Below, piece after piece: positions 4,416 through 26,490 of a stretch of DNA of 26,662 nucleotides (position 1 is the first letter of the stretch; every line of letters starts with the position of its first letter). The translations under genes were made by a program, and so were the position numbers. The stretch comes from a virus. The DNA lies in IMG/VR virus record IMGVR_UViG_3300035183_000161, positions 1-26,662 of that record. One strand, 5' to 3'. Below the pieces are notes generated by a model. That model was given only the letters and a program-made list of their open reading frames with translations, was not told where the DNA came from and made no database searches.

Positions 4416-5987
4416 ATGGACGGCCCGAGTGAGCGTGTGACACTTGACACCGCCGACGTTGTTGGTCGTGGCGCGAAGGACTACAGGTTCTACGCCTACG
4501 TGTTCCAGCGTGTGCTTTCGAAGAGCGGCGAGCTTGTGCCGTTCAAGCTTAACCGGGCCCAGTTGCATGTCCACGAGTTGATCGAGCGTCAACTGAAGGA
4601 AAAGGGTTGGGTGCGCGCGATCATCCTCAAAGGTCGGCAGCAAGGCATCTCAACCTACATTCAAGGCCGACTCAACTGGCGGTTGAAACACCGCGCGGGA
4701 GCGAAGGCGTACGTCGTAGCTCACGAGCAGCGGGCGAGTGACAACCTGTACGCGATGGCGCTTAGGTTCCACGAGAACACGCCGCCAGAATTCAGACCGT
4801 CGACTGGTGCTGCGAACGCGAAGGAACTCTGGTTCGACTTGCTTGATAGCAGGTACGAAGTTGCAACGGCTGGAACTCGAGAGACGGGTCGGTCGGGTAC
4901 GGCGCAGTATCTGCACGCGTCAGAGTACGCCTACTGGCCGACGCCTGAGGCGCACTGGGCAGGGCTCGGTCAGACGGTGCCGCTGTTGCCGAACACGGAG
5001 GTTATCGTCGAGTCGACGGCGAACGGCGTCAACAACGATTTCTATCGGCGGTGGAAGGCGGCGATCAACGGGTCGAGCGACTATCTGCCGATCTTTATCC
5101 CGTGGTTCTGGCAGACGGAGTACACGCTGCCGGTGCCGGACGGTTGGACGCGGACGCCAGAGGAGGATCAGCTTGTCGAGGTGTACGGCGACAAGGGTCT
5201 GACCGACGAACACCTAGTCTGGCGGCGGTGGAAAATCGCCAACGATTTCGACGGCGACATCAACAGGTTCCACGCCGAATATCCGTGCAACTGGCAGGAA
5301 GCGTTCGTCTCGGATGCTCGAGATTCGTTCATTCCGGGCAGTCTGGTCGTGCGGGCGCAGGCGATGCAATCAGTTGTGCCTTCGGGCCCGATGGTCGTGG
5401 GCGTAGACCCTGCGCGATATGGCGACGACCGTACTGCGATCGTTGTCAGGCAAGGCCGGAAGGTTAGGGCGGTCAAGACGTACGCGAAGCGTGGCACGAT
5501 GGAGGTTGCTGGCATCGTGGCCCGCTTTATCGAGGCGCACAATCCTGACGCCGTCTTTATCGACGTGATCGGCATCGGCGCAGGCGTGTACGACAGGTTG
5601 TGCGAACTCGGGTACGGCGCACAAGATGATGAGTCCAAGAACGTTGTCTTCGCGGTGAACGCTGCGGAGACTGCAATCGAGAGCGACAAGTATGTCAACC
5701 GCCGCGCCGAGATGTGGGGCGAAATGAAACGTTGGCTCGAGGAGTTCCCGTGTTCGCTGCCGCAGTCGGACGAAATCCTCGCAGACCTGACTGCGCCGGG
5801 GTACACGTACGACAGTTCTGGTCGCCTGAGGATCGAATCGAAGGAAAGCATGAAGAAGCGGGACGAGAAATCTCCCGACATCGCAGACGCGCTTGCGCTG
5901 ACGTTCGCGGAGCCCGTACGCAAGAAGGAAAAGAGCGGCCCAGTTGTTGCCGCATTCAGACCGTTCGATGAGGTTGTTGGCTACTGA
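4416..5987 (+). CDS. terL: Terminase large subunit
   Basis: The 523-residue DNA-packaging motor has an N-terminal ATPase and a C-terminal nuclease. A Walker A-like loop is seen at 72-80 (KGRQQGIST), preceded by RAIIL. The HASEYAYW segment (167-174) fits the region of Walker B and the catalytic Glu, and TEVIVESTANG (194-204) fits the coupling motif. The nuclease shows D331 (VVGVDPARYGDDRT), D383 (AVFIDVIGIGAG) and D488 (KSPDIADALAL), as expected of the RNase H-like fold. Length is typical. The ATG follows AGAGG. Its stop overlaps the portal start (TGATG), so motor and portal are made together. The enzyme acts at the portal vertex, cutting concatemers and pumping DNA with ATP. Confidence 0.95.
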   Translation: MDGPSERVTLDTADVVGRGAKDYRFYAYVFQRVLSKSGELVPFKLNRAQLHVHELIERQLKEKGWVRAIILKGRQQGISTYIQGRLNWRLKHRAGAKAYVVAHEQRASDNLYAMALRFHENTPPEFRPSTGAANAKELWFDLLDSRYEVATAGTRETGRSGTAQYLHASEYAYWPTPEAHWAGLGQTVPLLPNTEVIVESTANGVNNDFYRRWKAAINGSSDYLPIFIPWFWQTEYTLPVPDGWTRTPEEDQLVEVYGDKGLTDEHLVWRRWKIANDFDGDINRFHAEYPCNWQEAFVSDARDSFIPGSLVVRAQAMQSVVPSGPMVVGVDPARYGDDRTAIVVRQGRKVRAVKTYAKRGTMEVAGIVARFIEAHNPDAVFIDVIGIGAGVYDRLCELGYGAQDDESKNVVFAVNAAETAIESDKYVNRRAEMWGEMKRWLEEFPCSLPQSDEILADLTAPGYTYDSSGRLRIESKESMKKRDEKSPDIADALALTFAEPVRKKEKSGPVVAAFRPFDEVVGY

Positions 5988-8170
5988 TGCAAACGGAAAA
6001 CTATCCGCCGAGTGAAGGCGAGGTTCTTGACCGCCTCGAGGCGTTCGGCGTCGCGGTCCAGAAGCTGATCGACGAAGCGATCAGTGCGCGTGATGCGAGC
6101 GGCATCGAGTCGCGGTGGATCGAAGACCTGCGGCAGTACTACGGGTCAGAGATCTCGCAGCACTCGTACAGGTCGATGACGCAGATGGCGCAGGAGGGGG
6201 CGACCGATGCGGTCGTATCTGGCGACCGGCAGACGCGCAGCAGGATCTCGGTCAACATCACGCGTCCGAAAACCAACGCCGCCATCTCGCGGATCGCGGA
6301 GATGATGCTTCCGACGGACGACAAGAACTTCGCGATCAGGCCGACTCCGAACCCGGATCTTTCGTCAGATCTGACAAAGGGGCACGGGACGGTGCTGACC
6401 GTCGGTGGCCAGCCGATCATGAAGCCAGACGGCACAGAACTGACCGCTGCCGACGCTGCCAAGCAGGCCATCGAGGAGGCGGCGGAGCGTGCGAAGCGGA
6501 TGGAGCGGGAGATCGAGGACCAGCTTGTCGAGTGCAACTACAACGCCGAGTTCCGCAAGGGCATCTGGGACTTCTGCGTCCTCGGGACGATGATCCTGCG
6601 TGGCCCATTCGTGAAGCGTTACGTAGGCAAGAAGTGGACGAAGCTTCCGGACGGTTGGATGCTGCAGATCGAGGAGAAGTACGCGCCAGCGGTTGTACGA
6701 GTGAGCCCGTGGAACTTCTACCCGGACCCTGCTGCAGGTGGCGACATCGAGAAAGCTCGATACGTCGTGGAAGTCGAGGAGTTCAACGCGAAGACTCTCC
6801 GTGAGTTGCGCGGTCAGCACGGGTACATCACGAGCCAGATCAACGAATGCCTGAACGAGGGGCCCAAGGCTTCCAAGGCTGGCAGGGGCCGCAGGGTAGG
6901 AGTCGACAGGATCGTGCCGGGCGAGTATGTGACGCCAGACGACGCGGTCTTCGACGTGTACATCGTCCACGGCGAGTTCACTCGTGGCGACCTTGAGGCG
7001 GCTGGAGTCGAAGGGTGCGAGTGCCAGAACGATGATGAGCGTCAGGATGCAGTAAGCGGGTGCGTGTTTATCTGCAACGGGCGACCGATCAAGGCGTACC
7101 TGAACCCGCTCGACTCCGGTGAGCTTCCGTACTCGGTGGCGCAGTACGAGCGGATCGAAGGCCAGATGTTCGGAGTCGGCATCCCCTACATCCTGCGGAA
7201 TCCGTCGAAGGTCGTGACTGCCGGGTGGCGGATGATGATGGACAACGCGGCACTGTCAGCAGGTGGGCAGATCGTCATCAACCGCAAGCTGATCGAACCT
7301 GCCGACAAGTCTTGGGCGCTCACTGGATCCAAGATCTGGTTCTCGAAGGACGGAGTGGTCGACGTCGGGCACGCGTTCAAGACGTACCAGTTCGACACGC
7401 GTCAGGCCGAGATTCAGGCGATCATCGACCGCGCACTAAGGTTTGCCGAAGATGAGTCGAGCATCCCGTCGCTGCTGGAGGGCAATCAGGGGCAAGCGCC
7501 AGATCAGGTCGGGTCGATGACGCTGCTGTACAACAACGCCAACACGGTCCTCCGCAGAGTCGTGAAGACCATCGACGACTGCATCACCGACACGATGATC
7601 TCGCGGTTCTACGACTGGAACATGCAGTACAACGAGGACGAGTCGATCAAGGGAGACTTTCAGGTCGACGCGCGCGGTTCGTCTGCACTCATCCAGCGCG
7701 ACATGCAGAAGCAGATGCTACTGCAGATCGCAACCTACGTACTACACCCGGTCCTTGCGAAGTTCCACAAGAACGAGGGGTACGACTGGCTCAAGTCGGT
7801 CTACGAGATGAACCAGATCGACGCGAAGAGCATCCTTGTTGGTGAGGATGAGGCGACCCGCATCATCCAGCAGATGCAGCAGCAGCCGCAGCAGCAGGAT
7901 CCGAAGGTTGCGGTAGCCCAGATCAAGGCGCAACTTGATAGCGCCAAGCTGCAGGCGTCGATGCAGGATGCGGAGCGTGACCGTCAGGCTGACCTGCAGA
8001 AGATGAACCTGCAGTACGAGCTTGAGGTGATCAAGTATGCGAACGAGAACAAGATGAAGCTCGAGGACGTGAAGGCGAAGATGACGGAACTTCTTCTGCA
8101 GCAGCGGCACGAAGAGCGTATGCAGCAGAGGGAGCTTGACATCAAGGCCAGATTTGGCACAGGCATCTGA
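5987..8170 (+). CDS. Portal protein
   Basis: At 727 residues, next to terL, this has the size and place of a podovirus portal, the dodecameric ring through which DNA enters and leaves the head. The N-terminal part includes a helical segment and the stretch SRISVNITRPKTNAAISRIAEMMLP (residues about 85-109), resembling portals of short-tailed phages. The middle contains WNFYPDP (near 240), a typical portal motif. From about residue 625 the chain becomes a long, glutamine-rich and charged coiled coil (QQMQQQPQQQ then alternating K, E, Q), suiting the barrel that extends into the capsid. The start overlaps the terL stop. The ORF is intact. Confidence 0.9.
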   Translation: MQTENYPPSEGEVLDRLEAFGVAVQKLIDEAISARDASGIESRWIEDLRQYYGSEISQHSYRSMTQMAQEGATDAVVSGDRQTRSRISVNITRPKTNAAISRIAEMMLPTDDKNFAIRPTPNPDLSSDLTKGHGTVLTVGGQPIMKPDGTELTAADAAKQAIEEAAERAKRMEREIEDQLVECNYNAEFRKGIWDFCVLGTMILRGPFVKRYVGKKWTKLPDGWMLQIEEKYAPAVVRVSPWNFYPDPAAGGDIEKARYVVEVEEFNAKTLRELRGQHGYITSQINECLNEGPKASKAGRGRRVGVDRIVPGEYVTPDDAVFDVYIVHGEFTRGDLEAAGVEGCECQNDDERQDAVSGCVFICNGRPIKAYLNPLDSGELPYSVAQYERIEGQMFGVGIPYILRNPSKVVTAGWRMMMDNAALSAGGQIVINRKLIEPADKSWALTGSKIWFSKDGVVDVGHAFKTYQFDTRQAEIQAIIDRALRFAEDESSIPSLLEGNQGQAPDQVGSMTLLYNNANTVLRRVVKTIDDCITDTMISRFYDWNMQYNEDESIKGDFQVDARGSSALIQRDMQKQMLLQIATYVLHPVLAKFHKNEGYDWLKSVYEMNQIDAKSILVGEDEATRIIQQMQQQPQQQDPKVAVAQIKAQLDSAKLQASMQDAERDRQADLQKMNLQYELEVIKYANENKMKLEDVKAKMTELLLQQRHEERMQQRELDIKARFGTGI

Positions 8171-8181
8171 GGGAGAAGTAG

Positions 8182-8547
8182 ATGGCAACCATTTCTGCGA
8201 CGGTGAGTCGCATCAGCAACAACTCCGTCGTCATCACGTGGACCGGTGCCACCAACGGCGACACGTTCGAACCTGTTCCGTCGGAGTTTGCGGACTACTC
8301 GGACCGCAGCATTCAGGCGTCCGGGACGTTCGGTGGCGCGACCATCAACCTGCAGGGCAGCAACGACGGGACCAACTACGCGAACCTGAGTGACCCGCAG
8401 GGGGTGGTGATTGGTCTTACTGCTGCAGGAATCAAGCAGGTGCTTGAGGCAGTCCGTTACCAGCGTCCTGCAATTTCGGGTGGTACTGGTTCTTCCATCA
8501 ACGTGACCATGTTCCTGCGTCGTGGACGCGGCGGCAAGGAGGTCTGA
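8182..8547 (+). CDS. Small virion structural protein
   Basis: The 121-residue beta-rich protein has the pattern ATVSRISNNSVVITWTG at its N-terminus and QGSNDGTNYANLSDPQG near residues 58-74. I recall small phage structural proteins with this outline (GSNDG...L.DPQG...) encoded near portal or capsid genes; they are candidates for head decoration or connector roles. No enzymatic motif is seen. GGGAGAAG stands shortly before the ATG, and the next gene follows the stop immediately. The precise role is unknown. Confidence 0.7.
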   Translation: MATISATVSRISNNSVVITWTGATNGDTFEPVPSEFADYSDRSIQASGTFGGATINLQGSNDGTNYANLSDPQGVVIGLTAAGIKQVLEAVRYQRPAISGGTGSSINVTMFLRRGRGGKEV

Positions 8548-9090
8548 ATGGCAACTGAAAACTATCACCGGTCGCTTGCAAGTCTCGAGCAGCTTGCGCG
8601 CATCCTCCGCGACGTCAACGAGGCGGCGGAAGTTATCCGAACGATTGGCGCACACGAGGACCACGTCAACGAACTGAAGTCTGCAATCGCTGAGCTTGGC
8701 CAACAGAAGGAGGCGGCGTTGGCCGAGTACCAGAACATCAAGCGGCGCGTCGCAGAGGAGACGGCGAAGGCCGAGAGTGCTCTCCGTGACGCGAAGCGTG
8801 AGTCGACTGAACTCCTTGAGTCGACGAAGGCTGCCTGTGAAGCCAAGGTCGCCGAAGCGAACCGGAGGGCCGACGAGATCGTCTCGAACGCGAACGCGAG
8901 GGCCGAGTCGATTGCTAAGGCGTCCCGTGAGACTGTGGAGGCCACGAGGGGCGAGATCGCTCAGATGAAAGCTGAGCTTGCAGACCTTGAGAAGAAGGTC
9001 GAGGATAAGAAGGCTGAGCTTGCCGACATCCAGTCGAAGATCGCCAAGGCCCGCGAAGCTGTTTCGAGAATGTTCGGAGACGACGAATGA
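8548..9090 (+). CDS. Coiled-coil protein
   Basis: The 180-residue product is nearly all helix. From about residue 35 to 172 there is a dense run of A, E, K and R with heptad-like spacing (AEETAKAESALRDAKRES; AELADLEKKVEDKKAELADI) and no proline. This predicts a long rod, probably dimeric or trimeric. It could be a structural rod, an assembly chaperone or a second scaffold-like protein. A better scaffold candidate lies next to the capsid gene (16404). The start abuts the previous stop, and its end overlaps the next gene by four bases (ATGA). Confidence 0.72.
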   Translation: MATENYHRSLASLEQLARILRDVNEAAEVIRTIGAHEDHVNELKSAIAELGQQKEAALAEYQNIKRRVAEETAKAESALRDAKRESTELLESTKAACEAKVAEANRRADEIVSNANARAESIAKASRETVEATRGEIAQMKAELADLEKKVEDKKAELADIQSKIAKAREAVSRMFGDDE

Positions 9091-9665
9091 AGCGACCGAA
9101 GAAAGTCAGCCTGATCAAGGTGTGGGACTACCCCAAGAACGATTACTCCGCATATTGGGAGATCGTCGTCACAGAGGGCAACCCGTACACGTGGTCGGCC
9201 AAGATCCTCTCGTACGACCCGGTGGCTTGGGAGCACGGCGGAGTCGTGTCGAGTGAGCGTCCGGATGTGCCGTGGCCAGTGTATCCGCCAGACCTTCCTG
9301 CTGGCGCGACGGAGGAGCAGCGTGAGGCGCGCCTGAAGCTGATCCACAAGTTGTGGGATGAGTCGCCAAAGCCGATCCACCTTCTGGAGGAAGGCTCTGG
9401 ATCGGCGGCGTCTCGAGATGAGGCTGACGAGGCTGCACAGAAGTGGGTTCTGTCTCGGATGGAGACGTACCGGCGACCTGAGCCGCTGCACCGGTACACG
9501 GACGAGGAGGTCGACAACTTGGTCGCCACCTTCGACCTTGCGCGCAAGTCTCTCGACTTCGCCCGCGTCGACGAAATCCGTGGGCTTCTGAGGGCTCAAG
9601 GGATCGTTCTGGATGAGGGCGAAAGCATCGGGTACGGCGGCCACACGACTTGGAAGAGGGTATAG
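9087..9665 (+). CDS. Unknown protein with CysRS C-terminal-like domain
   Basis: The 192-residue protein has two parts. Residues 1-135 are unlike anything I recognise (tryptophan- and proline-containing, e.g. SAYWEIVVTEGNPYTWSAK near 21-39). Residues about 140-192 closely follow the C-terminal segment of cysteinyl-tRNA synthetase: LARKSLDFARVDEIRGLL, then AQGIVLDEG, then TTWKRV, against the bacterial pattern ARKxKDWxxADxIRDxL...GIVLEDGPxGTTWRR. The catalytic Rossmann domain is absent, so it cannot charge tRNA alone. The similarity is seen directly; what the domain does here is unknown. Neighbours are virion genes. Confidence 0.75.
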   Translation: MKRPKKVSLIKVWDYPKNDYSAYWEIVVTEGNPYTWSAKILSYDPVAWEHGGVVSSERPDVPWPVYPPDLPAGATEEQREARLKLIHKLWDESPKPIHLLEEGSGSAASRDEADEAAQKWVLSRMETYRRPEPLHRYTDEEVDNLVATFDLARKSLDFARVDEIRGLLRAQGIVLDEGESIGYGGHTTWKRV

Positions 9666-10088
9666 ATGGCACAGCAACTTTCTCTCGCGGGGTCGATCCG
9701 CGCAAACATGCTCAACCAGATCCGTGACGCAATCGACGCCGGTACTGGAGCCGGACTCTTCCGTGTCTACAACGGGACACGTCCGTCTACGGGTGGCGCC
9801 GTGACCACTCTGCTTGCCGAGCTTACGTTCTCCGACCCGTGCGCGCCGAACGCGTCCGGTACTACTGGTGGCGCGGCGACGCTGACGTTCAACTCGATCA
9901 CTGCCGACTCCAGCGCAGACAACACCGGCACAGCGACTTGGGGGCGCATCGTCGACTCGTCGGGGACGTTCGTTGCAGACTTCAACGTCGGCACGTCTGG
10001 TGCCGACTTCAACCTGAACACCACTTCGATCAACGCTGGCGTGCAGGTTAGCTGCACGTCGGCAACCATCTCTGCGGGGAACCAGTGA
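9666..10088 (+). CDS. Virion structural protein, beta-rich
   Basis: The 140-residue protein has an N-terminal helix (SIRANMLNQIRDAIDAG) and a beta-rich, threonine-, serine- and glycine-rich remainder (TATWGRIVDSSGTFVADFNVGTSGADF near 95-121). The composition and the motif SSADNTGTATW...GTSGADFNLNTTSI suggest a small virion or tail-associated protein; I recall similar uncharacterised phage proteins. The start follows the previous stop directly, and the next gene starts at a GTG overlapping its stop (GTGA). No enzymatic motif is seen. Confidence 0.7.
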   Translation: MAQQLSLAGSIRANMLNQIRDAIDAGTGAGLFRVYNGTRPSTGGAVTTLLAELTFSDPCAPNASGTTGGAATLTFNSITADSSADNTGTATWGRIVDSSGTFVADFNVGTSGADFNLNTTSINAGVQVSCTSATISAGNQ

Positions 10089-10315
10089 GAGTAACCGTAA
10101 TCGAGGTTATCGAGGCGCTCAACCGTGGCGGCCAGATGACTGTGGCGGAGATCGTCGAGTCAACGAAGATGAATGTCGACACCGTGAGGGACACGCTTGC
10201 GACGCTTTCGAAGGCTGGTTGGGTCTACCCGTGCGGTTTGAGGGGCAGGGTTCCCGGGAAGATGAAGGCAGTCGTGTGGAAGTCTGCTGTGCATCGATCA
10301 GAGAGGAGCGAATGA
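10085..10315 (+). CDS. Winged helix-turn-helix protein
   Basis: The 76-residue product looks like a minimal winged-helix domain: helix 1 (VIEVIEALNR, about 5-14), helix 2 (TVAEIVEST, about 19-27), recognition helix (NVDTVRDTLATLSKAG, about 30-45) and a basic wing (YPCGLRGRVPGKMKAVVW). Such domains bind DNA and often regulate transcription. It starts at GTG 10085, overlapping the preceding stop. A DNA-binding protein embedded among virion genes is unusual; it may regulate late genes or control the neighbouring accessory genes. It overlaps the next start by ATGA (10312-10315). Confidence 0.7.
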   Translation: MRVTVIEVIEALNRGGQMTVAEIVESTKMNVDTVRDTLATLSKAGWVYPCGLRGRVPGKMKAVVWKSAVHRSERSE

Positions 10316-10641
10316 GGGAGACAGTTTTTGCAATCCTGATGGCGGCAGCATCGGTTGCTTTTGCCGGTGACGCGCGCGTGTGCCACGTGAATCCTGACGA
10401 TATTGCGAGGAATGCCGACGGCACGATCAAACGGAGTCAGACGGCGAAGCGCAACTTCGTGAGGGAGCACCCGTGCCCGTCTACCGGCCTTACCACTGGA
10501 GCATGTGCAGGGTGGTACATCGACCACGTCATCCCTCTGGCATGTGGCGGGTGTGACGACGTTATCAACATGCAGTGGCTTCCTGAGTCTCAGTGGAAAG
10601 ACAAGAGCAAGTGGGAACGCAAGGTCTACTGTGGACGGTGA
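10312..10641 (+). CDS. Exported HNH-like nuclease
   Basis: The 109-residue protein begins with a signal peptide (hydrophobic core about 4-16, cleavage after AFAG near residue 19). The mature domain carries GWYIDHVIPLACGGCDD (68-83), the beta-beta-alpha core with D71 and H72, then NMQW (N86), then KDKSKWERKVY (97-106) where the last HNH His is usually found; here lysines occupy that place, as I recall for one subfamily. Six cysteines (24, 55, 65, 78, 81, 107) would suit disulfides or metal sites in the periplasm. It is predicted to nick or degrade DNA outside the cytoplasm. The start overlaps the previous stop (ATGA). Confidence 0.8.
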   Translation: MRETVFAILMAAASVAFAGDARVCHVNPDDIARNADGTIKRSQTAKRNFVREHPCPSTGLTTGACAGWYIDHVIPLACGGCDDVINMQWLPESQWKDKSKWERKVYCGR

Positions 10642-10647
10642 GTAACG

Positions 10648-11217
10648 ATGAAGAAGGCTCTCCTGATTCTGAACGACTTGGTGATCGCGGTAGCAGTCGA
10701 GATCATCTCGTGGCCTCTTGCACTCTTGGTTCCAGTCGTTGCGCTATTCGCCAAGTGGGACGACAAGCCGACGACTTGGACAGGAGGTGCGGACGACTAC
10801 GACCACCCCACGATTCGTGGCGACCTGCCGCGTTGGGCATATATCTGGGGCACTCCAGACGAGCGGCTGCCGGGTGATGTGGGTATGCAACAGACGCGCG
10901 ATGTGTTCGACTGGACGACGAAGAAGTTCGGTGAGAAGGTCGGTCGTTACCTGACGAGCGTCTGGTGGCTGTTCCGTAACCGCATGTACGGCCTCTCGTG
11001 GGTTACGAGTGCAAGGCCTAGCGACGGAGAGTTCGTCAAGCCGCAGACTCCCGGGCTTGCATGGTACGAGAGCGAAGGTATCTGGCGGTGGTGGAGAAGG
11101 TTCGGTCCTGTTGAACTTCAGGCTGGATGGAAGCCGCACAGGGCGGACGAGAAGGCGCACTGGCAGCGTGGACCTTTCGTAGTGATCCGGTACGTATCGG
11201 TCAGGAAGGCGAGGTAG
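10648..11217 (+). CDS. DUF7338-like phage membrane protein
   Basis: The 189-residue protein has one or two N-terminal membrane segments (about residues 8-34, LVIAVAVEIISWPLALLVPVVALF). An invariant-looking core follows: KWDDKPTTWTG, TIRGDLPRWAYIWGTPDERLPGD (about 56-78), and WWLFRNRMYGLSW (about 107-119). I recognise this as the outline of an uncharacterised phage family (DUF7338 as I recall). The cytoplasmic or periplasmic domain is rich in W and R. Function unknown. It follows the exported nuclease by six bases and precedes a virion gene by three, so it is part of the same operon. Confidence 0.75.
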   Translation: MKKALLILNDLVIAVAVEIISWPLALLVPVVALFAKWDDKPTTWTGGADDYDHPTIRGDLPRWAYIWGTPDERLPGDVGMQQTRDVFDWTTKKFGEKVGRYLTSVWWLFRNRMYGLSWVTSARPSDGEFVKPQTPGLAWYESEGIWRWWRRFGPVELQAGWKPHRADEKAHWQRGPFVVIRYVSVRKAR

Positions 11218-11220
11218 GAA

Positions 11221-11706
11221 ATGCGCGGTCAATACAAGGTCATCGTCCCTCTGGTGCGTTTCGAGACGACGGAGGACAGCGTTGCAGGGATCATCGTCCC
11301 GGCGAACACGGTCGCGCAACTGAATCGCATCCGCGTTGCCGGTCCGTCGATCACATCGAACAACGCTATCCGGCTCCGCATCCGACGGTTCACAGGCAAC
11401 ACGCCGACGCTGAGCAATGCCAACACGCCGAAGGCGGTCATCGACTCGAACCAGTTGTCGGCAAGCGTCCAGTGGGGCGATCGCGGATCGGCAGGGACGG
11501 GCACCGTCTGGAGCGCAACGCCGACGACGCCGCAGGCTGACATCTTCAATCAGGAGGCGAACCTGTTCGGCGGCGTGATCCAGTGGCAGTCCACGCTTCA
11601 GGAATCGCTCGACATTGGTGGACAGACGTCCGCGACTTACTACGACGTCCTTGGGAAGGCCGGGACGCAGGCGTTCGGGACGATTGAGTTCGTGTTCACC
11701 GAATGA
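11221..11706 (+). CDS. Virion structural protein, 161 residues
   Basis: A beta-rich protein with no signal peptide, rich in T, S, N and Q. The segment VPANTVAQLNRIRVAGPSITSNNAIRLRIRRFTG (about 26-59) suggests a jelly-roll-like virion component. I do not recognise a specific family. Its stop overlaps the start of the glycosidase-like gene (ATGA at 11703-11706), so it may be the partner or base for that enzyme on the particle. AGGAA stands just before the ATG. Confidence 0.65.
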   Translation: MRGQYKVIVPLVRFETTEDSVAGIIVPANTVAQLNRIRVAGPSITSNNAIRLRIRRFTGNTPTLSNANTPKAVIDSNQLSASVQWGDRGSAGTGTVWSATPTTPQADIFNQEANLFGGVIQWQSTLQESLDIGGQTSATYYDVLGKAGTQAFGTIEFVFTE

Positions 11707-13043
11707 CGCCACGGCTGCGGTCTGGGGTGACGACGAGGCTCTCGGCGGCCACTGCTCGCGGTCGTCCCGGAAGCATCTGGCCGTTGGCGATATCCAGCAA
11801 CGGGCGATACCTGCAAGGCGCCAATGGGCAGGCGTTCCTGATTCACGGAGATACTCCGTGGTCGATTGTAGTGCAGTTGACGAACGCTCAGATAGACACC
11901 TACTTTGCGGACCGCGCCGCCAAGGGCTTCACTGCCATCCTGTTCAACGCCATCGAGCACTACTTCTCCAGCCAGACGCCATTCTACAGAGACGTTAGTG
12001 GGAACGATCCGTTCGTCGGCATGACGCACAACAACGTGGACTTCACGCAGCCGGTGGAGGCGTACTGGCAGCGCGTCGATTACATCGTGCAGAAGGCCAA
12101 GGACAACGGCATCGTCTGCCTGATGTGCCCCGCCTACCTTGGCTTCGGGGGCGGCACGAACAGCGCAACCGACCAAGGGTGGGATTCTGCGGTAACGAAC
12201 GCATCGGCGGCGAACCTGCAGTCCTACGGACAGTGGCTGGCTAACAGGTATTCGTCCTACGGCAACGTGATCTGGGTGATGGGCGGCGACTACGCAGGCT
12301 CGACGAGCGTATCCAAGCAGTGGAACATCGCAATCGGCATCCGCAACGTCAACTCGGGCGCGATCATCACGGGGCACGCGGCACGGACGCAGGAGGCGTA
12401 TACGGCTTGGTCAGGCTTCACCGGTTGGAACCTGAACAACATCTACACGGATGGCGTCGAGTACACCTACGCGGCCACGGCGTACGGACGCTCAGGGCCG
12501 ATCCCGTTCTTCCTGATCGAGGGCTACTACGACGGGGAAACAGCGACCGCCGCCGACTGTAGGCGGCAGGTATATGCGACCATGCTGTCGGGCGGATGCG
12601 GGCATATGTATGGCAACAACCCGATCTGGGGGTTCGGCGAGCCTCATGCGAACGGCGGCGCGGGGGCTGCGTCCGCTCTCTCGACAGGACTGAACACGAC
12701 CGCCGCCCAGCAGATGGCGCACGTGAGGACGCTGTTCGACGCCTACCAGTGGTGGAAACTTCAGCCGAAGACTGATACCAGCCTTATCTCGTCGTCGCTC
12801 GGAAGCGGAACGGGCCGGGTGTGTCCGGCGCTGGCGAGCGACGGAAGCTTTGCGATGATCTGGGTGCCGTCGTCGCAGACGGTGACGCTCGTCAAGTCTG
12901 CGCTCACGCCGAACCCGATCCGCGTGCGGCTGTACGATCCAACGAACGGCACGTACACGGTGCACACGGCAAGCACCAGCAACACCGGAACGCTGAACGT
13001 CGCCACTGGCGGCGAGCGCATCGTCGTGGTGGATGCGGCATGA
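11703..13043 (+). CDS. Apiosidase-like glycoside hydrolase, likely virion-borne
   Basis: The 446-residue protein matches the outline of apiosidase-like / DUF4038 TIM-barrel enzymes (GH140-related). N-terminal region: SSNGRYLQGANGQAFLIHGD followed by TPW (about 31-53), the usual first strand. Catalytic acid candidate: D196 in NVIWVMGGDY. Nucleophile candidate: E273 in PFFLIEGYYDG. A C-terminal beta domain (about 360-446, with FAMIWVPSSQTVTL and RLYDPTNGTYT) corresponds to the small domain that usually follows. Residues 1-25 are arginine-rich and not part of the barrel; they may be a linker or an anchor. No signal peptide is seen, so secretion is unlikely and attachment to the virion is inferred from fibre-like neighbours. 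A substrate cannot be read from sequence; capsule or lipopolysaccharide glycans are plausible. Confidence 0.85.
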   Translation: MTPRLRSGVTTRLSAATARGRPGSIWPLAISSNGRYLQGANGQAFLIHGDTPWSIVVQLTNAQIDTYFADRAAKGFTAILFNAIEHYFSSQTPFYRDVSGNDPFVGMTHNNVDFTQPVEAYWQRVDYIVQKAKDNGIVCLMCPAYLGFGGGTNSATDQGWDSAVTNASAANLQSYGQWLANRYSSYGNVIWVMGGDYAGSTSVSKQWNIAIGIRNVNSGAIITGHAARTQEAYTAWSGFTGWNLNNIYTDGVEYTYAATAYGRSGPIPFFLIEGYYDGETATAADCRRQVYATMLSGGCGHMYGNNPIWGFGEPHANGGAGAASALSTGLNTTAAQQMAHVRTLFDAYQWWKLQPKTDTSLISSSLGSGTGRVCPALASDGSFAMIWVPSSQTVTLVKSALTPNPIRVRLYDPTNGTYTVHTASTSNTGTLNVATGGERIVVVDAA

Positions 13044-13807
13044 CGACACACACTGACAACTTCAACCGGGCGAACGAAACTCCGCTGGCCGCTCCGTGGA
13101 GCACCTGCTTCGGCGGCGGTGCGCGGCTGGTTTCAAATGCCGTCACCAGCGTAGGCGGCACTGAATCTGGCAGCTACTACTCCGACACGTGGGGCGCAGA
13201 TCAGGAGTCGATGGCTACCGTCGGCAACCTGTCGCCTAACAACAACTATGCGGAACTTCTTGTTCGGGCAGACGGAAGCGGGAACGCATTCGCGCTGACT
13301 ACCGACGGACAGTCCGGGCTGGGACACACAGAGTTCGCACGGTGGAATGCCGGAACGTACACAGCCCTCGGTGGAATTGCGACGACCTTCGCCAACGGCG
13401 ACAAGATGCGCCTCACTGTCAGCGGGTCGTCTGGCTCGATCACGCTGACCGCATACAAGGACTCAGGCAGCGGGTGGGTGCAGGTCGGCCAGATCACAGG
13501 CCAGACCGGGCCAAACAGCGGAGCGCCGGGCGTCGCAGCTTACGGGTTGGCGACAATCGATGACTGGACCGGCACGGATGGCGCGGCCTCCACGACGCTC
13601 GACCAGAAGGTCTACCGCTACTTCAACGACGACGGCAGCGAGAGCGGGAGCACGCCGATGGCTGGGCAGAACGTGGACGTGACGGTAGCGCCCGGAGGCG
13701 TCTTCCGCATCCGCTTCGGTATCAAAGCGACCGGCGACCCGACAGGAAAGCAGTTCCGCCTCGAATATGACACCGTAGGCGGATCGAACTGGAAACAGGT
13801 GCCCTGA
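13040..13807 (+). CDS. Jelly-roll (LamG/ConA-like) virion protein
   Basis: The 255-residue protein opens with DNFNRANETPLAAPWST (6-22), the common start of concanavalin-like glucanase/lectin domains in phage and bacterial proteins. About residues 25-185 continue as alternating beta strands (MRLTVSGSSGSITLTAYKD). A second small domain, about 193-255, contains FNDDGSESGST and FRIRFGIKATGD, a pattern often appended to phage fibre proteins. It probably binds sugars or supports fibres. The start at 13040 is preferred since it overlaps the glycosidase stop (ATGA); the open frame upstream is a shadow of that gene. It overlaps the next start (TGATG). Confidence 0.75.
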   Translation: MTTHTDNFNRANETPLAAPWSTCFGGGARLVSNAVTSVGGTESGSYYSDTWGADQESMATVGNLSPNNNYAELLVRADGSGNAFALTTDGQSGLGHTEFARWNAGTYTALGGIATTFANGDKMRLTVSGSSGSITLTAYKDSGSGWVQVGQITGQTGPNSGAPGVAAYGLATIDDWTGTDGAASTTLDQKVYRYFNDDGSESGSTPMAGQNVDVTVAPGGVFRIRFGIKATGDPTGKQFRLEYDTVGGSNWKQVP

Positions 13808-14790
13808 TGTTCCATACCGTTTCACGGGTAGCAGAAAGCTCGACCAGTACCGGAACCGGCGACTTCACGCTCGCTGGCGCGCTGGCTGGACACATCCGCG
13901 CGAACCAGATTCCGAACATCGCAATCAACGACTTCTTCGACTACCTGATCGAGTCGGTCGATGCGAACGGTGTGCCGAATGGAGATTGGGAAGTCGGCAT
14001 CGGCACATACAGCGCGGCGAACACGCTCAACCGCACCATCGTCACCGAGTCGAGCAACGGTGGTTCGCTTGTCAACTTCGGCTCTGGCACGAAGTACGTC
14101 TACCTGAGCCCGATCTCATTGCGGTTCGGACTGAACAGAAGCCGGTGGGCGTTCTACGAGACGGATTTCCTCGGTCCGGCAGGCGCGGCGACGCTCGAGG
14201 CGGCGTCGATGATCTGGGACGTGGCGCTCCTAAGCTCCGGCACGCAGGCAAAAGTGGCGGGAACGGCTGGACACCCCGGACAGTGGAGACCTTCGTCTTC
14301 CACGACCGCCAACAGCGGCGCATACGTGATGAGCGACACGACCGCATTCGTGATCGAGGGCGGAGAGGTCGGCGAGTTCATCATCAACCCGCAAACGAAC
14401 ACAGGCACGACGATCCGTGCCGGGCACCACAACGCGACAACCGCGACCGCCCCGACCAACGGTGTTTTCTTCGAGATCGTTGCTGGAGCGGTTGTGGGAA
14501 TCTGCCGCAACGCTGGCACCCAGACAGCTACAGCGACGCTCGCAACGCTGTCGACGGCAACGTGGTACCGGCTGCGGTATCGAATCAACCTTGCCAAGAC
14601 GGAAGCCCTGTTCCAAGTCTTCAGCGAGACCGGGACTCTACTTGGCTCCGGCACGGTGACCTCGAACATACCGGCGGCTACGAGCACAATGGGTCACGGG
14701 CTGATCGCCACGAACAGCGGCACGACCGCCGTTGCGCTCGTGATCGTGGACTACATGTCGCTTGCGTCGCTCCGCCGACTGACGAGGTAG
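13807..14790 (+). CDS. Fibre-like virion protein
   Basis: The 327-residue protein is in two parts. Residues 1-105 match the N-terminal module seen in many phage fibre and appendage proteins: RVAESSTSTGTGDFTLAGAL (7-26), then NGDWEVGIGTYS (58-69), then NTLNRTIVTESSNGGSLVNFG and KYVYLSP. From about 115 a jelly-roll-like domain follows (WAFYETDFLGPAG; GHPGQWRP; YRLRYRINLAKTEALFQVF). The layout suggests a particle-attached sugar- or receptor-binding protein. The start overlaps the preceding stop and the end is four bases before the next gene. No enzymatic residues are apparent. Confidence 0.75.
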   Translation: MFHTVSRVAESSTSTGTGDFTLAGALAGHIRANQIPNIAINDFFDYLIESVDANGVPNGDWEVGIGTYSAANTLNRTIVTESSNGGSLVNFGSGTKYVYLSPISLRFGLNRSRWAFYETDFLGPAGAATLEAASMIWDVALLSSGTQAKVAGTAGHPGQWRPSSSTTANSGAYVMSDTTAFVIEGGEVGEFIINPQTNTGTTIRAGHHNATTATAPTNGVFFEIVAGAVVGICRNAGTQTATATLATLSTATWYRLRYRINLAKTEALFQVFSETGTLLGSGTVTSNIPAATSTMGHGLIATNSGTTAVALVIVDYMSLASLRRLTR

Positions 14791-14794
14791 CACG

Positions 14795-16039
14795 ATGCAG
14801 TGGCGCGTATACGGGCGGCTGCCGTATGCGCCCGGTCTCAAACGTCCCGGCCAAGCTGAGCCGGAGGTCCACCTCGTCGACTCGACGTTCATCGCCTCCG
14901 GCGCTGCGACGAGCACGACGCAGCGGCTGACAGGGCTCACCGGCACCTTCACCGCTGGCCGGATCAGCGACGACACGAACCCGCTGCCGTCGATCGACAT
15001 CGGTAACGACGGCAATACCGAGGTCGAGTTCTGCGTCAAGATCGCAGCCTCGGTAACCAACGGCACCCAGTTCAAGTTCCGCATCACTGCCAACGGGACG
15101 CCGCTTGATACCTACACGGTCACGCCGGTCGTCACGGTCGGCACGCCTGCACCTCCGGCGCCTCCGGAGGGATTGAGGGCGACCCCGCTTGCGCCCGACC
15201 CTGACCTCGAATACGCGGCGAGGGAGTGGCGGCAGCCTGATGTTGCGCCATTTGCTGCGCTGCTTCAGCCGACTAATGTCAGCGGCTCGCTGGCGTCGAC
15301 GTTGGACGGTGCAACACTAGGTGCCAATGGGGCGGTTAATAACAGTGGGGCACTATCATCTGTACTGGATGGCGCGACGCTGTCATCCTCCGGTGCAGTA
15401 AACAACCGTGGGACACTGTCATCGTCTGTGGCAGATGCCGTCATGTCTGCCGCTGGCGGAACTGCCTATGTCGGGTCGTTCTCTTCTGCGCTTGATAACA
15501 TCACACTCGCTGTGTCAGGCGTAGTGAACGACAGTGGAACGTTCTCTGGTTTGACTGATGGCGCACAAATGTCGGCGTCCGGCGTAGTTGGAAGCGGAGC
15601 AGTTTTCGGGTCGCTGTCGTCTGATCTGCAGGACTTGGTGGCGTCATTCTCTGGCGTAGTAAATAACCGTGGCGTGCTGTCTGGCGCGACCGCCGATGCG
15701 GCCATGTATGCCGCCGGGGTAGTCGACAACAGGGGTTCACTGTCTGTACAGGTTGTGTCTGCCTCACTGTCAGCCACCGGTGTGGTGGACAACCGTGGGA
15801 CGCTGTCGTCACAGGTGTCCTCGACGATGTCCTCCTCAGGGCTTGTCGCAGTGATTGGCACCCTGTCGATGCAGCTTGATGACGCCACGATGTCTGCCTC
15901 CGGCACCGTCAGTCAGAACGTGAGCGGAACATTTTCCGCGCAAGTTCAGGATGCAGTCATGCTTGCGACAGGTACTGCAGGCGGATCGGTAACTCAATCT
16001 TCCGATTGGATGATTCAATGGAGACGCCGCAGGTATTAG
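14795..16039 (+). CDS. Repeat-containing fibre-like protein
   Basis: The 414-residue protein has a non-repeat N-terminal domain (about 1-160), including a strand-rich stretch ending in VTPVVTVGTPAPPAPPEG, a proline linker, and a domain pattern similar to the end of the 13040 gene (EVEFCVKIAASVTNGTQFKFRI). Residues 164-397 consist of eleven imperfect repeats of about 21 residues, of the type G-[ST]-[LF]-S-x5-[DA]-x-x-[ML]-x-[AS]-x-G-x-V-x-N-[NR]. This is a beta-solenoid-like or stacked-strand rod. The last residues are basic and aromatic (WMIQWRRRRY). It is probably a virion fibre, and no family name is assigned. Confidence 0.75.
   Translation: MQWRVYGRLPYAPGLKRPGQAEPEVHLVDSTFIASGAATSTTQRLTGLTGTFTAGRISDDTNPLPSIDIGNDGNTEVEFCVKIAASVTNGTQFKFRITANGTPLDTYTVTPVVTVGTPAPPAPPEGLRATPLAPDPDLEYAAREWRQPDVAPFAALLQPTNVSGSLASTLDGATLGANGAVNNSGALSSVLDGATLSSSGAVNNRGTLSSSVADAVMSAAGGTAYVGSFSSALDNITLAVSGVVNDSGTFSGLTDGAQMSASGVVGSGAVFGSLSSDLQDLVASFSGVVNNRGVLSGATADAAMYAAGVVDNRGSLSVQVVSASLSATGVVDNRGTLSSQVSSTMSSSGLVAVIGTLSMQLDDATMSASGTVSQNVSGTFSAQVQDAVMLATGTAGGSVTQSSDWMIQWRRRRY
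15284..15985 (+). repeat. Eleven degenerate 63-bp coding repeats
   Basis: Repeat units begin at residues 164, 185, 206, 227, 248, 272, 293, 314, 335, 355 and 378 of the fibre-like protein, with spacing of 20-24 and mostly 21 residues. DNA similarity is highest in the VNNRG-type part (e.g. AACCGTGGGAC near 15406 and 15791), pointing to duplication followed by divergence. Confidence 0.8.
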
Positions 16040-16403: not shown

Positions 16404-17249
16404 ATGGCCGTTGAGCCGAACAACCAAGAGGAACTGACACCGGAGCAGATCTGGCGTGAGCTTGATGCAGAAGAGTCTGCCGGGAATAACCCGCCAGAGG
16501 AGCAGCAGGCGCACACTGAATCTGCTCAGAAGCATGAGGAGAAGGCTGAGGAGAAGGCGGCCCCAGTTCAAGCTCTCTCTGACCAAGAGAGGGAGATGCT
16601 GCGGCAGCTACCTGAGCTAATTCACCTCGTCAAGACGACCGTCGGGAGAGTAGGGTCCATCCAGTCTGAACTTCAGAAGATCGGGAAGGCTGCCGCCGCT
16701 CAGGCCGCAGACTCTCCGACCGAGAAGCAGATCGAGAGGGCGTCCGAGAGTCCCGAGGCGTGGAAAAAACTGAAGGAAGACTTCCCCGACTGGGCGGAAG
16801 GTGTCGAGGCATACGTCTCGTCACGAATTCCCAGTGGCACGGTACCTGACACGCAGAAGATCGTGTCTGAGGCTGTCGCCAAGGCGAGGGCAGAGATTGT
16901 TGCCCTACGCGAGAAGGAAGCCGAGGAGGAGTTGGACGACGTCAGGCCAGACTGGCGTAACGTCGTCAAGAGTGAGGACTTTGCGAAGTGGCTCTCGTCG
17001 CAGCCCGCTGACTACCAGCAGCGCGCCATGTCGACGTGGAGACCTTCGGCGGTTCTCCGGATCATCTCCGACTTTGAGAAGGCTTCGAAACCGAAGCCGC
17101 AGGATGGTACGCCGCAGAAGCGTCTTGCTTCGGCAGCTATCCCGAGCGGTACGTCCAACAAAGTCAACCTGACGAAGTCGCTCGACGAGATGACTCCACA
17201 GGAACTGTGGGCCTACTACGACGAGATGGACCGTCGCGGAAAGAGATAA
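16404..17249 (+). CDS. Scaffolding protein
   Basis: The 281-residue, highly charged helical protein lies directly before the major capsid gene. The N-terminal region is acidic (EELTPEQIWRELDAEES), residues about 30-60 are glutamate- and alanine-rich, 60-110 suggest a coiled coil (LSDQEREMLRQLPELIHLVKTTVGRVGSIQSEL), and 145-180 form another helix. The C-terminus is basic and helical (TPQELWAYYDEMDRRGKR), as expected for the segment that contacts coat protein. Composition, length and position all fit an internal scaffold that guides procapsid assembly and leaves before packaging. GGAG precedes the ATG. Confidence 0.85.
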   Translation: MAVEPNNQEELTPEQIWRELDAEESAGNNPPEEQQAHTESAQKHEEKAEEKAAPVQALSDQEREMLRQLPELIHLVKTTVGRVGSIQSELQKIGKAAAAQAADSPTEKQIERASESPEAWKKLKEDFPDWAEGVEAYVSSRIPSGTVPDTQKIVSEAVAKARAEIVALREKEAEEELDDVRPDWRNVVKSEDFAKWLSSQPADYQQRAMSTWRPSAVLRIISDFEKASKPKPQDGTPQKRLASAAIPSGTSNKVNLTKSLDEMTPQELWAYYDEMDRRGKR

Positions 17250-17263
17250 CGGAGTAACCTGAA

Positions 17264-18286
17264 ATGACCATGCAAACCTATTTTAGTCCTGCACCGCCAC
17301 GAGTACTTGTCCGTGCGGAGCGAGAACTTCTGAAGTCGGCTGAGCCGATCATGGCGCTGTCGTACTTCGGTGTCCAGAAGCAGCAGCCGAAGAACAGCAC
17401 CGACACGATTGTGTTCCGCCGGTACCTGCCGCTCGATGCGGCTGCCAACGGTGCGCCTGTTGTCGATGCGGCGAACTACCTGTTGGCCGAGGGCTTGACG
17501 CCGAATGCCAAGACTCTGACGCCGCAGGACGTCCAAGTGACGCTGCAGCAGTATGGCGTCCTCATGAAGCTCACGAACAAGACGGAAGACCTGCACGAGG
17601 ACGATATTCCGTCCGAGATGATCAAGAAGGTCGGCGAACACATGGGTTCGCTGTCCGAGGTCATCAACTACGGCGTCGTCCGCTCCGGCACCAACGTGAT
17701 CACGGCAAGTGGTGGTGCTCGCAACACCATCAACACCCCGATCACGCTGAACCTGCTGCGGAAGGCTGACCGGCAGCTTCAGGCTGCCCACGCCCGCGAG
17801 GTCACGCAGCGGCTCGCCGCCGGTGTCAACTTCGGTACGGAGCCGGTTGCGCCGTCGTATCTGGTGTTCGCACATACGGACGTCATCGCCGACATCCGCA
17901 ACATCGCTGGCTTCACCCCGGTCGAGGAGTACGGCTCCTTCAAACCGGTGCATGACCGCGAAGTTGGGAAGATCGAGTGCTTCCGCGTCATCTCGTCGCC
18001 CTACTTCCGCCCGTTCGCCAACGCTGGTTCGTCCACGCTGAACGGCATGATCGGCGGTACCGCCGTCGACGTCTACCCGGTCATCGTGGTCGGCGAGGAT
18101 GCGTGGGGTCAGGTTGCCCTGAAGGGTCAGGGTGCCGTCAGGCCGACGTACCTTCCGGCGAAGATCAAGAACCACGCGAACCCGATGGGCATGTTCGGCT
18201 ACGTCGGTGCCGACTTCTGGAAGGCGGCTGTCCGGCTCAACGAGTCGTGGATGGTCCGTATCGAAGTTGGTGCGACCAACCTGTAA
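17264..18286 (+). CDS. Major capsid protein, N4-gp56 family
   Basis: The 340-residue coat protein shows the outline of the N4-gp56 family (HK97 fold): VLVRAERELLKSAEPIMALSYF near 14-35, FGVQKQQPKNSTDTIVFRRY (35-54), LLAEGLTPNAKTLTPQDVQVTLQQYG (73-98) and, late in the chain, VFAHTDVIADIRNIAGFTPVEEYG. Four hundred or so copies would form the icosahedral shell. The ATG at 17264 is chosen because GGAG (17251-17254) stands nine bases upstream; the second Met at 17270 is too far from it. The gene is followed by a strong hairpin and probably has a more abundant message than its neighbours. Confidence 0.93.
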   Translation: MTMQTYFSPAPPRVLVRAERELLKSAEPIMALSYFGVQKQQPKNSTDTIVFRRYLPLDAAANGAPVVDAANYLLAEGLTPNAKTLTPQDVQVTLQQYGVLMKLTNKTEDLHEDDIPSEMIKKVGEHMGSLSEVINYGVVRSGTNVITASGGARNTINTPITLNLLRKADRQLQAAHAREVTQRLAAGVNFGTEPVAPSYLVFAHTDVIADIRNIAGFTPVEEYGSFKPVHDREVGKIECFRVISSPYFRPFANAGSSTLNGMIGGTAVDVYPVIVVGEDAWGQVALKGQGAVRPTYLPAKIKNHANPMGMFGYVGADFWKAAVRLNESWMVRIEVGATNL

Positions 18287-25368: not shown

Positions 25369-26490
25369 ATGGCTGTACTGAAAACATACCTGCCTCAGTA
25401 TGAGGATGGAATGTCACCGTATACTTACGGTAGCAAGCCTCCGTCGACGACTTCTGGCAATCAGAACAACGTCACTACAGGTTTATACAGTAGCTCTGGG
25501 CCTGTTACTGGTGGCCAAAGTTCTGGCTCGCTGCAGCCGCCTCCTCCTCCAAATACTACGATTCAGAGCACGCCCCCGGCTCCAACACCTTCTCCTGCGC
25601 CGTCTCCATCTCCAGCACCAACTCCTGCTCCGTCTACGTGGCAATCTACAAACCAGATTCCAACTCCGCCGACGATCACTGCTCCACCTGTTCCTCCCGC
25701 TCCGCCAGCCGCGACGGTCACTCCGGTCACAAGGAACGTGTCGCAGGACGAGACTGTGGAGAGCCGTCTTGGTGGTCTGCTTACTCGTGGGAACCCGCTA
25801 CTTGAGCTTGCGGTGACGCGAGCGCAGCAGCAGGCTGCCGCACGTGGACTCCTGAATAGCTCAATCGCAGCAGAAGCTGGTCAGGCAGCGGTCATCCAGA
25901 ATGCCCTCCCGATTGCATCACAAGATGCATCCACGTACAACAAGGTTCTGTCTGAGAACCTGAACTACATGAATCAGGCCGCGCAAATGAATGCGGCTGA
26001 ACAGAACAAGTTCGGGCTTCAGTCGCAGCAGCTTGCGTCCGACCTGCAGAAGCTCGCCATGAGCGGCAACATCGAGCTTCAGAAGCAGTACCTTCAGAGT
26101 GCGTACAACCTCGAAGAGAAGCGCGTCGAGGCACAGTATCAGCAGCTACTGAGGGGGTCCGCGTCTGCGACTCAGGTCTACCAGCAGATGCAGCAGAACG
26201 TTGCCAACATCATGATGAACAAGGACTTGGATGCCGCCTCGAAGACGCGTCTGGTTGCTGAGCAGGTTGAGCTTACACGCGGAGCCCTGCGGATCATCGG
26301 GTCGATGGCTGGAGACATCAACCTAGTCAGCCAGCTTGATGACATCCTGAAGCCGGGTGTGAAAATTGCGGTTCCGCCGCCTCCTCCGCCACCGCCTCCT
26401 CCGCCGCCTCCGCCGCCACCGCAGATTCTACCGCCGCCAAATTATCCGCCATATTATCCATATTACCCCGGCTACGCTGATGGCCCGTGA
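25369..26490 (+). CDS. Internal virion / ejection-like protein with polyproline
   Basis: The 373-residue protein has a proline-rich N-terminal third (about 57-118, PPPPP and repeated PAPSPSPAPTP), a helical middle (about 125-330, QQAAARGLLNSSIAAEAGQAAVIQNALPIASQDASTYN) and 16 consecutive prolines at 336-351, then a tyrosine- and proline-rich end (PPPNYPPYYPYYPGYADGP). The ARGLLNSSIAAEAGQ...ALPIASQDA stretch recalls internal or ejection proteins of short-tailed phages, which leave the head with the DNA. Family membership is not certain. It follows the adhesin after nine bases and precedes a hydrophobic protein, as ejection genes often do. Confidence 0.75.
   Translation: MAVLKTYLPQYEDGMSPYTYGSKPPSTTSGNQNNVTTGLYSSSGPVTGGQSSGSLQPPPPPNTTIQSTPPAPTPSPAPSPSPAPTPAPSTWQSTNQIPTPPTITAPPVPPAPPAATVTPVTRNVSQDETVESRLGGLLTRGNPLLELAVTRAQQQAAARGLLNSSIAAEAGQAAVIQNALPIASQDASTYNKVLSENLNYMNQAAQMNAAEQNKFGLQSQQLASDLQKLAMSGNIELQKQYLQSAYNLEEKRVEAQYQQLLRGSASATQVYQQMQQNVANIMMNKDLDAASKTRLVAEQVELTRGALRIIGSMAGDINLVSQLDDILKPGVKIAVPPPPPPPPPPPPPPPPQILPPPNYPPYYPYYPGYADGP

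Follow-up and report, generated by a model that had tools for sequence, protein, structure and literature searches.

We analyzed a virus record of 26,662 bases (the window, by which we mean this whole stretch of DNA), which is classed as linear and is possibly a fragment. PHROG matches outline a podovirus-like head/tail block, and inside it lies a gene for a predicted glycosidase of the Apiosidase family (PF13204, DUF4038). The enzyme, its predicted parts, and the genes that frame it are listed below.

4416-5987, large terminase (PHROG)
5987-8170, plus strand, portal/head-tail adaptor protein (phrog_332, phrog_1216), 5' border of a variable slot
9666-10088, plus strand, virion structural protein (phrog_3758, E = 2.7e-34)
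11221-11706, plus strand, 161-residue protein, ATGA-coupled to the enzyme gene, no family match
11703-13043, plus strand, PF13204 Apiosidase-family glycosidase of 446 residues (Pfam E = 6.6e-59; AF2 pLDDT 90.8; TM 0.81 to 8t9w)
11703-11768, plus strand, arginine-rich disordered leader, residues 1-22, possible docking peptide (charge, pLDDT, similar starts in relatives)
11793-12758, plus strand, catalytic TIM-barrel domain, residues 31-352 (PF13204)
12288-12290, plus strand, D196 of the GGD motif, predicted catalytic (invariant in family alignments)
12519-12521, plus strand, E273 of the IEG motif, predicted catalytic (invariant in family alignments; aligned with a glutamate of 8t9w)
12774-12989, plus strand, C-terminal all-beta domain, PF12904-like, residues 358-429 (Pfam E = 8.4e-05; strands in the model)
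13040-13807, plus strand, 255-residue protein coupled to the enzyme gene, its C-terminal domain shared with the post-enzyme gene of viral contig L172 (43% over 75 residues)
13807-14790, plus strand, tail-fiber-like protein with a fiber N-terminal and an SO2946-like C-terminal domain (PF22237, E = 1.3e-23)
14795-16039, plus strand, protein rich in repeats, with homologous repeats downstream of the enzyme in L172 and also in the close relative L003
16404-17249, plus strand, scaffold-like protein (phrog_13678, function unknown; position kept in relatives), 3' border of the variable slot
17264-18286, plus strand, major head protein (phrog_1357, E = 4.3e-57)
from 19553, tail proteins (PHROG)
22304 and 23878, fiber-like proteins (PHROG)

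The enzyme gene is a complete open reading frame of 446 codons with an ATG start; shuffling the window 100 times gave stop-free runs of at most 370 codons. Four-base ATGA overlaps join it to its neighbors at both ends, with the stop codon of the upstream gene and the ATG of the downstream one. GC content is 0.62-0.63 for the enzyme gene and the two genes that follow, a little higher than the mean of 0.59 for the window. The stretch between 8000 and 17300 showed no promoter-like site, which is compatible with, and weak evidence for, a single late transcription unit.

PF13204 covers residues 31-352 over the full length of the model (positions 1-320 of 320), scoring 200.5 bits against a curated cut-off of 26.5. 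An AF2 model calculated from a 36-sequence alignment has a mean pLDDT of 90.8, with values below 50 for residues 1-20 only. Among solved structures its top fold matches are the GH140 apiosidases 8t9w (TM 0.81) and BT_1012 (TM 0.79), at 19-24% sequence identity, and the enzyme matches no NCBIfam model. D196 (GGD motif) and E273 (IEG motif) do not vary in either of two family alignments, one with 38 members and one with 36, the alignment places E273 opposite the glutamate of the DGE motif in 8t9w, and both residues with their surrounding motifs are constant across all phage members. By what is established for BT_1012, we take the two residues to be the acid/base and the nucleophile. An earlier note on this DNA, made from its letters, had proposed a TIM-barrel enzyme related to DUF4038 and GH140 with D196 and E273 in the usual motifs, and both proposals are borne out. 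The modeled fold is a TIM barrel and not a right-handed beta-helix; this excludes only the beta-helix subtype of phage depolymerase, since the wider class accepts other folds.

The catalytic domain is preceded by a short leader. Residues 1-22 carry a net charge of +5. Shuffling gives p = 0.003 for this, without correction for the roughly 30 proteins examined, and once these are taken into account the arginine enrichment is modest. The arginine-rich start described in the earlier note is thus present, and the structure prediction that it called for returns the first 20 residues as disordered. Short basic starts (MRSRRALRR, VPRLRS, and MPARRLMR) also occur in stand-alone phage relatives, among them L087, L088, and L172, whereas bacterial relatives such as that of Methylibium have signal sequences at the N-terminus. 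We rejected a reading of the leader as a cryptic signal peptide, as it has no hydrophobic segment; such a segment is absent from the enzyme, in agreement with the earlier statement that a signal peptide is lacking. The leader may plausibly serve as a docking peptide. In viral contig L170 the enzyme starts with a Tat-type signal, followed by an internal methionine and the stretch QRPRPRG; the window enzyme has no Tat-type signal. Several phage-type genes beside the enzyme in L170 (1238-5647) likewise encode Sec- or Tat-like signals at their start, which gives the impression that a group of virion-like proteins is exported.

The gene had been described as lying between structural and jelly-roll genes, and the structural part of this description holds: a virion structural protein is encoded upstream (9666-10088), and the product of 13807-14790 resembles annotated tail fiber proteins of three phages over residues 4-101. 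The jelly-roll part finds no support for the gene directly downstream, because the 13040-13807 product matches no family and its single-sequence AF2 model is poor and uninformative (pLDDT 39). Neither immediate neighbor (11221-11706 and 13040-13807) has a match in PHROG or Pfam. We assign a scaffold role to the 16404-17249 product because its gene precedes that of the major head protein. The catalytic gene is located among tail and virion genes, as is expected for a depolymerase of the phage particle. Elsewhere, the window carries a tRNA-Met (CAT) gene at the contig start (44-118), a small predicted exported protein with a signal-like start (2076-2501), and a small protein whose start is signal-like and whose C-terminal part contains an HNH-like motif (DHVIPLACGG...NMQWL), without PHROG or NCBIfam match (10312-10641). 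Its last gene (25369-26490) encodes long proline runs near both protein ends.

Comparison with relatives identified by their head protein revealed that the region between the portal and scaffold genes is a variable slot. Both border genes could be placed in 30 relatives; the gap measures 0.5-1.0 kb in 21 of them and holds an insert of 2.5-5.1 kb in the other nine, and it spans 8.2 kb in the window. The inserts of three relatives (L007, L036, and L079) code for PHROG tail or tail-fiber proteins. None of 50 head-protein relatives, many of them fragments, contains PF13204, and the enzyme is therefore a sporadic occupant of the slot.

We then searched for phage homologs of the enzyme itself. Among 50,697 records of a phage collection, no genuine annotated phage yielded a match. 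Two records labeled 'Bacteriophage sp.' (MT835628.1 and MT835684.1) do match, and we rejected them as phages, as their SusD-like, glycosidase, transporter, and two-component genes mark bacterial DNA. Two unannotated 3.9-kb records of Listeria phage LM 4-11-1 (OR847300.1 and OR847301.1) give weak DUF4038-like matches and may be bacterial fragments. A scan of viral contigs for close relatives with the single window protein as query returned nothing; relatives surfaced in IMG/VR scans when alignments and a relative served as queries. These are the viral contigs L085, L086, L087/L089, L088, L170, and L172, with identities of about 44-57%, together with two genome contigs, one from Methylibium and one from an Arenimonas metagenome-assembled genome. 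The Arenimonas gene lies beside a terminase, and its protein is essentially the same as that of L088. In a maximum-likelihood tree the window enzyme falls into an eight-row clade (support 99/96), which spans seven phage lineages with differing terminases. The Methylibium lipoprotein lies inside this clade and is its only member of clearly cellular origin.

The contexts of these relatives bear on where the enzyme acts. In L085, a contig that also carries terminase and major head genes, the enzyme domain is part of a single protein of 1306 residues (8360-12280), which combines fn3, GHL15 (a second predicted glycosidase domain), and Apiosidase domains. The L086 enzyme directly follows an SU10-type portal gene and is contained in a larger protein that runs to the contig end; C-terminal to the enzyme there is a weak beta-helix match (E = 0.002, 17 bits against a cut-off of 141.5), and this region has no match in PHROG or the phage database. 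L172 has a terminase of a family (phrog_15) different from that of the window, and its gene order resembles the window: after the enzyme come a protein that has a domain in common with the 13040-13807 product (43% identity over 75 residues) and a repeat protein homologous to that of 14795-16039. L170 is a Mu-like contig with transposase-like genes.

To approach the substrate, we studied the loci of cellular relatives. The closest plasmid genes (33-36% identity) lie in exopolysaccharide loci of Shinella and Roseateles, which encode a tyrosine autokinase, an export protein, a flippase, glycosyltransferases, and a polysaccharide pyruvyl transferase. A pyruvyl-transferase/glycosyltransferase setting also occurs in Rhodovastum, Neorhizobium, and Agrobacterium. 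In the unannotated Sinorhizobium locus we found matches to a glycosyltransferase, a flippase, and a pyruvyl transferase near the gene, and the same comparison returned no such neighbors in Phyllobacterium. Rhodococcus has a pyruvyl transferase nearby, and Acidisarcina a TonB receptor instead. Most proteobacterial relatives examined are thus situated in exopolysaccharide loci, often adjoining a polysaccharide pyruvyl transferase. DUF4038 genes of this kind, often beside a pyruvyl transferase gene, are those of the proteobacterial loci L173, L174, L176, L187, L188, and L192.

The Methylibium gene has a comparable setting. Upstream of it are genes that, read from their sequences, belong to nucleotide-sugar metabolism (types cytidylyltransferase, CDP-glucose dehydratase, and rfbC), as well as matches to a pyruvyl transferase and a GT2 enzyme, and a flippase gene lies downstream. 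Its protein has a lipoprotein-type N-terminal signal that is absent from the window protein. Among 80 loci from the genome collection, with flanks of at most about 6 kb per side, Methylibium is the only one with exopolysaccharide-type neighbors. Within the Methylibium order the family is rare (5 of 399 genomes), and so it is in the class of L143 (2 of 385 genomes). The tree places the phage clade and the exopolysaccharide-locus clade in the same half, with weak support (59/81). Because the relatives sit in exopolysaccharide loci, we infer an exopolysaccharide of the host, or a coat glycan resembling one, as the substrate. The earlier note had suggested an unusual branched glycan on the host surface; host exopolysaccharide is a concrete alternative, and a likelier one than an apiose-containing glycan. 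'Apiosidase' is probably the wrong substrate name for this enzyme. In the open-access literature we found no paper linking DUF4038 to phage, or linking such a glycosidase to exopolysaccharide biosynthesis.

On balance, we think that the window probably encodes a tail-fiber-associated hydrolase of the phage particle. The Apiosidase/DUF4038 enzyme would be made together with the head and tail-fiber proteins and be carried on the particle within a tail-fiber-like cassette (11.2-16.0 kb), perhaps docked via the arginine-rich leader. D196 and E273 would cleave glycosidic bonds of a host exopolysaccharide or O-antigen-like coat, which would let the phage reach its receptor. We favor the particle because of the slot, the fiber-like company of the gene, the larger-protein forms in L085 and L086, and the L172 cassette. 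The earlier designation as a probable virion part thereby gains a footing stronger than position alone, while presence in the particle, like docking, activity, substrate class, and a role in adsorption, is something we infer. A broader version, which we put forward tentatively and think somewhat less likely to be right than wrong, holds that the enzyme belongs to a portable particle cassette. This cassette would move among phages with unrelated terminases, would carry a DUF4038 enzyme of the exopolysaccharide type that docks by its leader where it is not fused, and would be exchanged between phages and bacteria in either direction, since Methylibium falls inside the phage clade.

The likeliest of the alternatives, though itself rather unlikely, is a soluble late enzyme that stays outside the particle, is freed at lysis, and clears exopolysaccharide for progeny phages. 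In the window the gene is a stand-alone one of 446 codons, and Pfam recognizes no virion or tail-anchor domain in its product. The Tat-type start in L170 also suits an exported enzyme better than a particle part, and some phage versions may be secreted by it. The fusion of the L085 and L086 forms into larger proteins beside terminase or portal genes argues against a free enzyme, as do the fiber genes held by the slot in relatives and the coupling of the window gene to fiber-like genes. We consider it improbable that the gene instead serves host fitness or superinfection by remodeling exopolysaccharide in the infected or lysogenic cell. Its nearest cellular relatives presumably do remodel exopolysaccharide, and L170 combines a Mu-like contig with a Tat-type signal, but the window protein lacks a signal peptide and is sited in a late structural block, and no integrase or repressor was recognized in the 26.7-kb window, which may be a fragment.

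A genuine apiosidase, with apiose-bearing glycans from plants or from bacteria that make apiose as its substrate, would account for the GH140 enzymes being the best solved matches (TM 0.79-0.81). The low identity to these structures speaks against it, as does a tree position outside the Bacteroidota/Planctomycetota clade and nearer the exopolysaccharide-locus enzymes (with weak support), and we regard it as very improbable. Enzyme folds are now and then repurposed for binding, yet a TIM barrel that has lost catalysis and only binds carbohydrate during adsorption is scarcely credible here, given that D196, E273, and nearby motifs are invariant across the phage members.

The particle-borne hydrolase that we favor would bring a further enzyme family into the set of phage depolymerases, one likely to escape fold- and keyword-based tools whose training covered beta-helices, propellers, and triple helices. 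The loci of the relatives also tie the poorly understood DUF4038 family to exopolysaccharide loci with pyruvyl transferases, and thus provide a short list of polysaccharides on which phage and bacterial enzymes could be assayed.

Several known systems invite comparison with the enzyme. With the GH140 apiosidases (BT_1012, PDB 5msy/3kzs, and the mangrove-metagenome enzyme 8t9w) it shares the TIM barrel, the C-terminal beta domain, and the GGD and glutamate motifs (TM 0.77-0.81), but it is phage-encoded, has only 19-24% identity, lacks a signal peptide and a polysaccharide-utilization locus, and probably differs in substrate. The exopolysaccharide-locus DUF4038 proteins of Shinella, Roseateles, Neorhizobium, Agrobacterium, and Rhodovastum belong to the same family, and the tree puts them close to the phage clade. 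Closer still, the Methylibium protein is 57% identical and has the same active-site motifs; it is lipoprotein-like, exported, and encoded in a polysaccharide biosynthesis locus, whereas the phage versions lie in structural blocks. Exopolysaccharide biosynthesis loci encode other glycosidases too, among them PslG, a TIM-barrel hydrolase; it is a PDB fold match (TM 0.50) from a different family, and its comparison with a phage use is by analogy. In a library of viral structures the best match reaches TM 0.64 at 10% identity, and no member shows this fold at a comparable similarity. Aci07-type tail proteins and GH5-like phage proteins are also TIM-barrel glycosidases located at or close to the tail, with a host surface glycan as their presumed target; the Aci07 protein is from a different family (TM 0.35). 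Four such Acinetobacter tail proteins, e.g. that of Aci07, are from phages with reported depolymerase activity (PMC11823257). TIM barrels make up 10 of 984 depolymerase-fold hits in DepoScope, whose training left them out (PMC11326577), so that the fold is indeed uncommon for a particle enzyme, as the earlier note had it, though examples exist (PMC11823257). Taken together, TIM-barrel phage depolymerases are known, though rare; the novelty here lies in the family of the enzyme, in its cassette, and in the connection with enzymes of exopolysaccharide loci.
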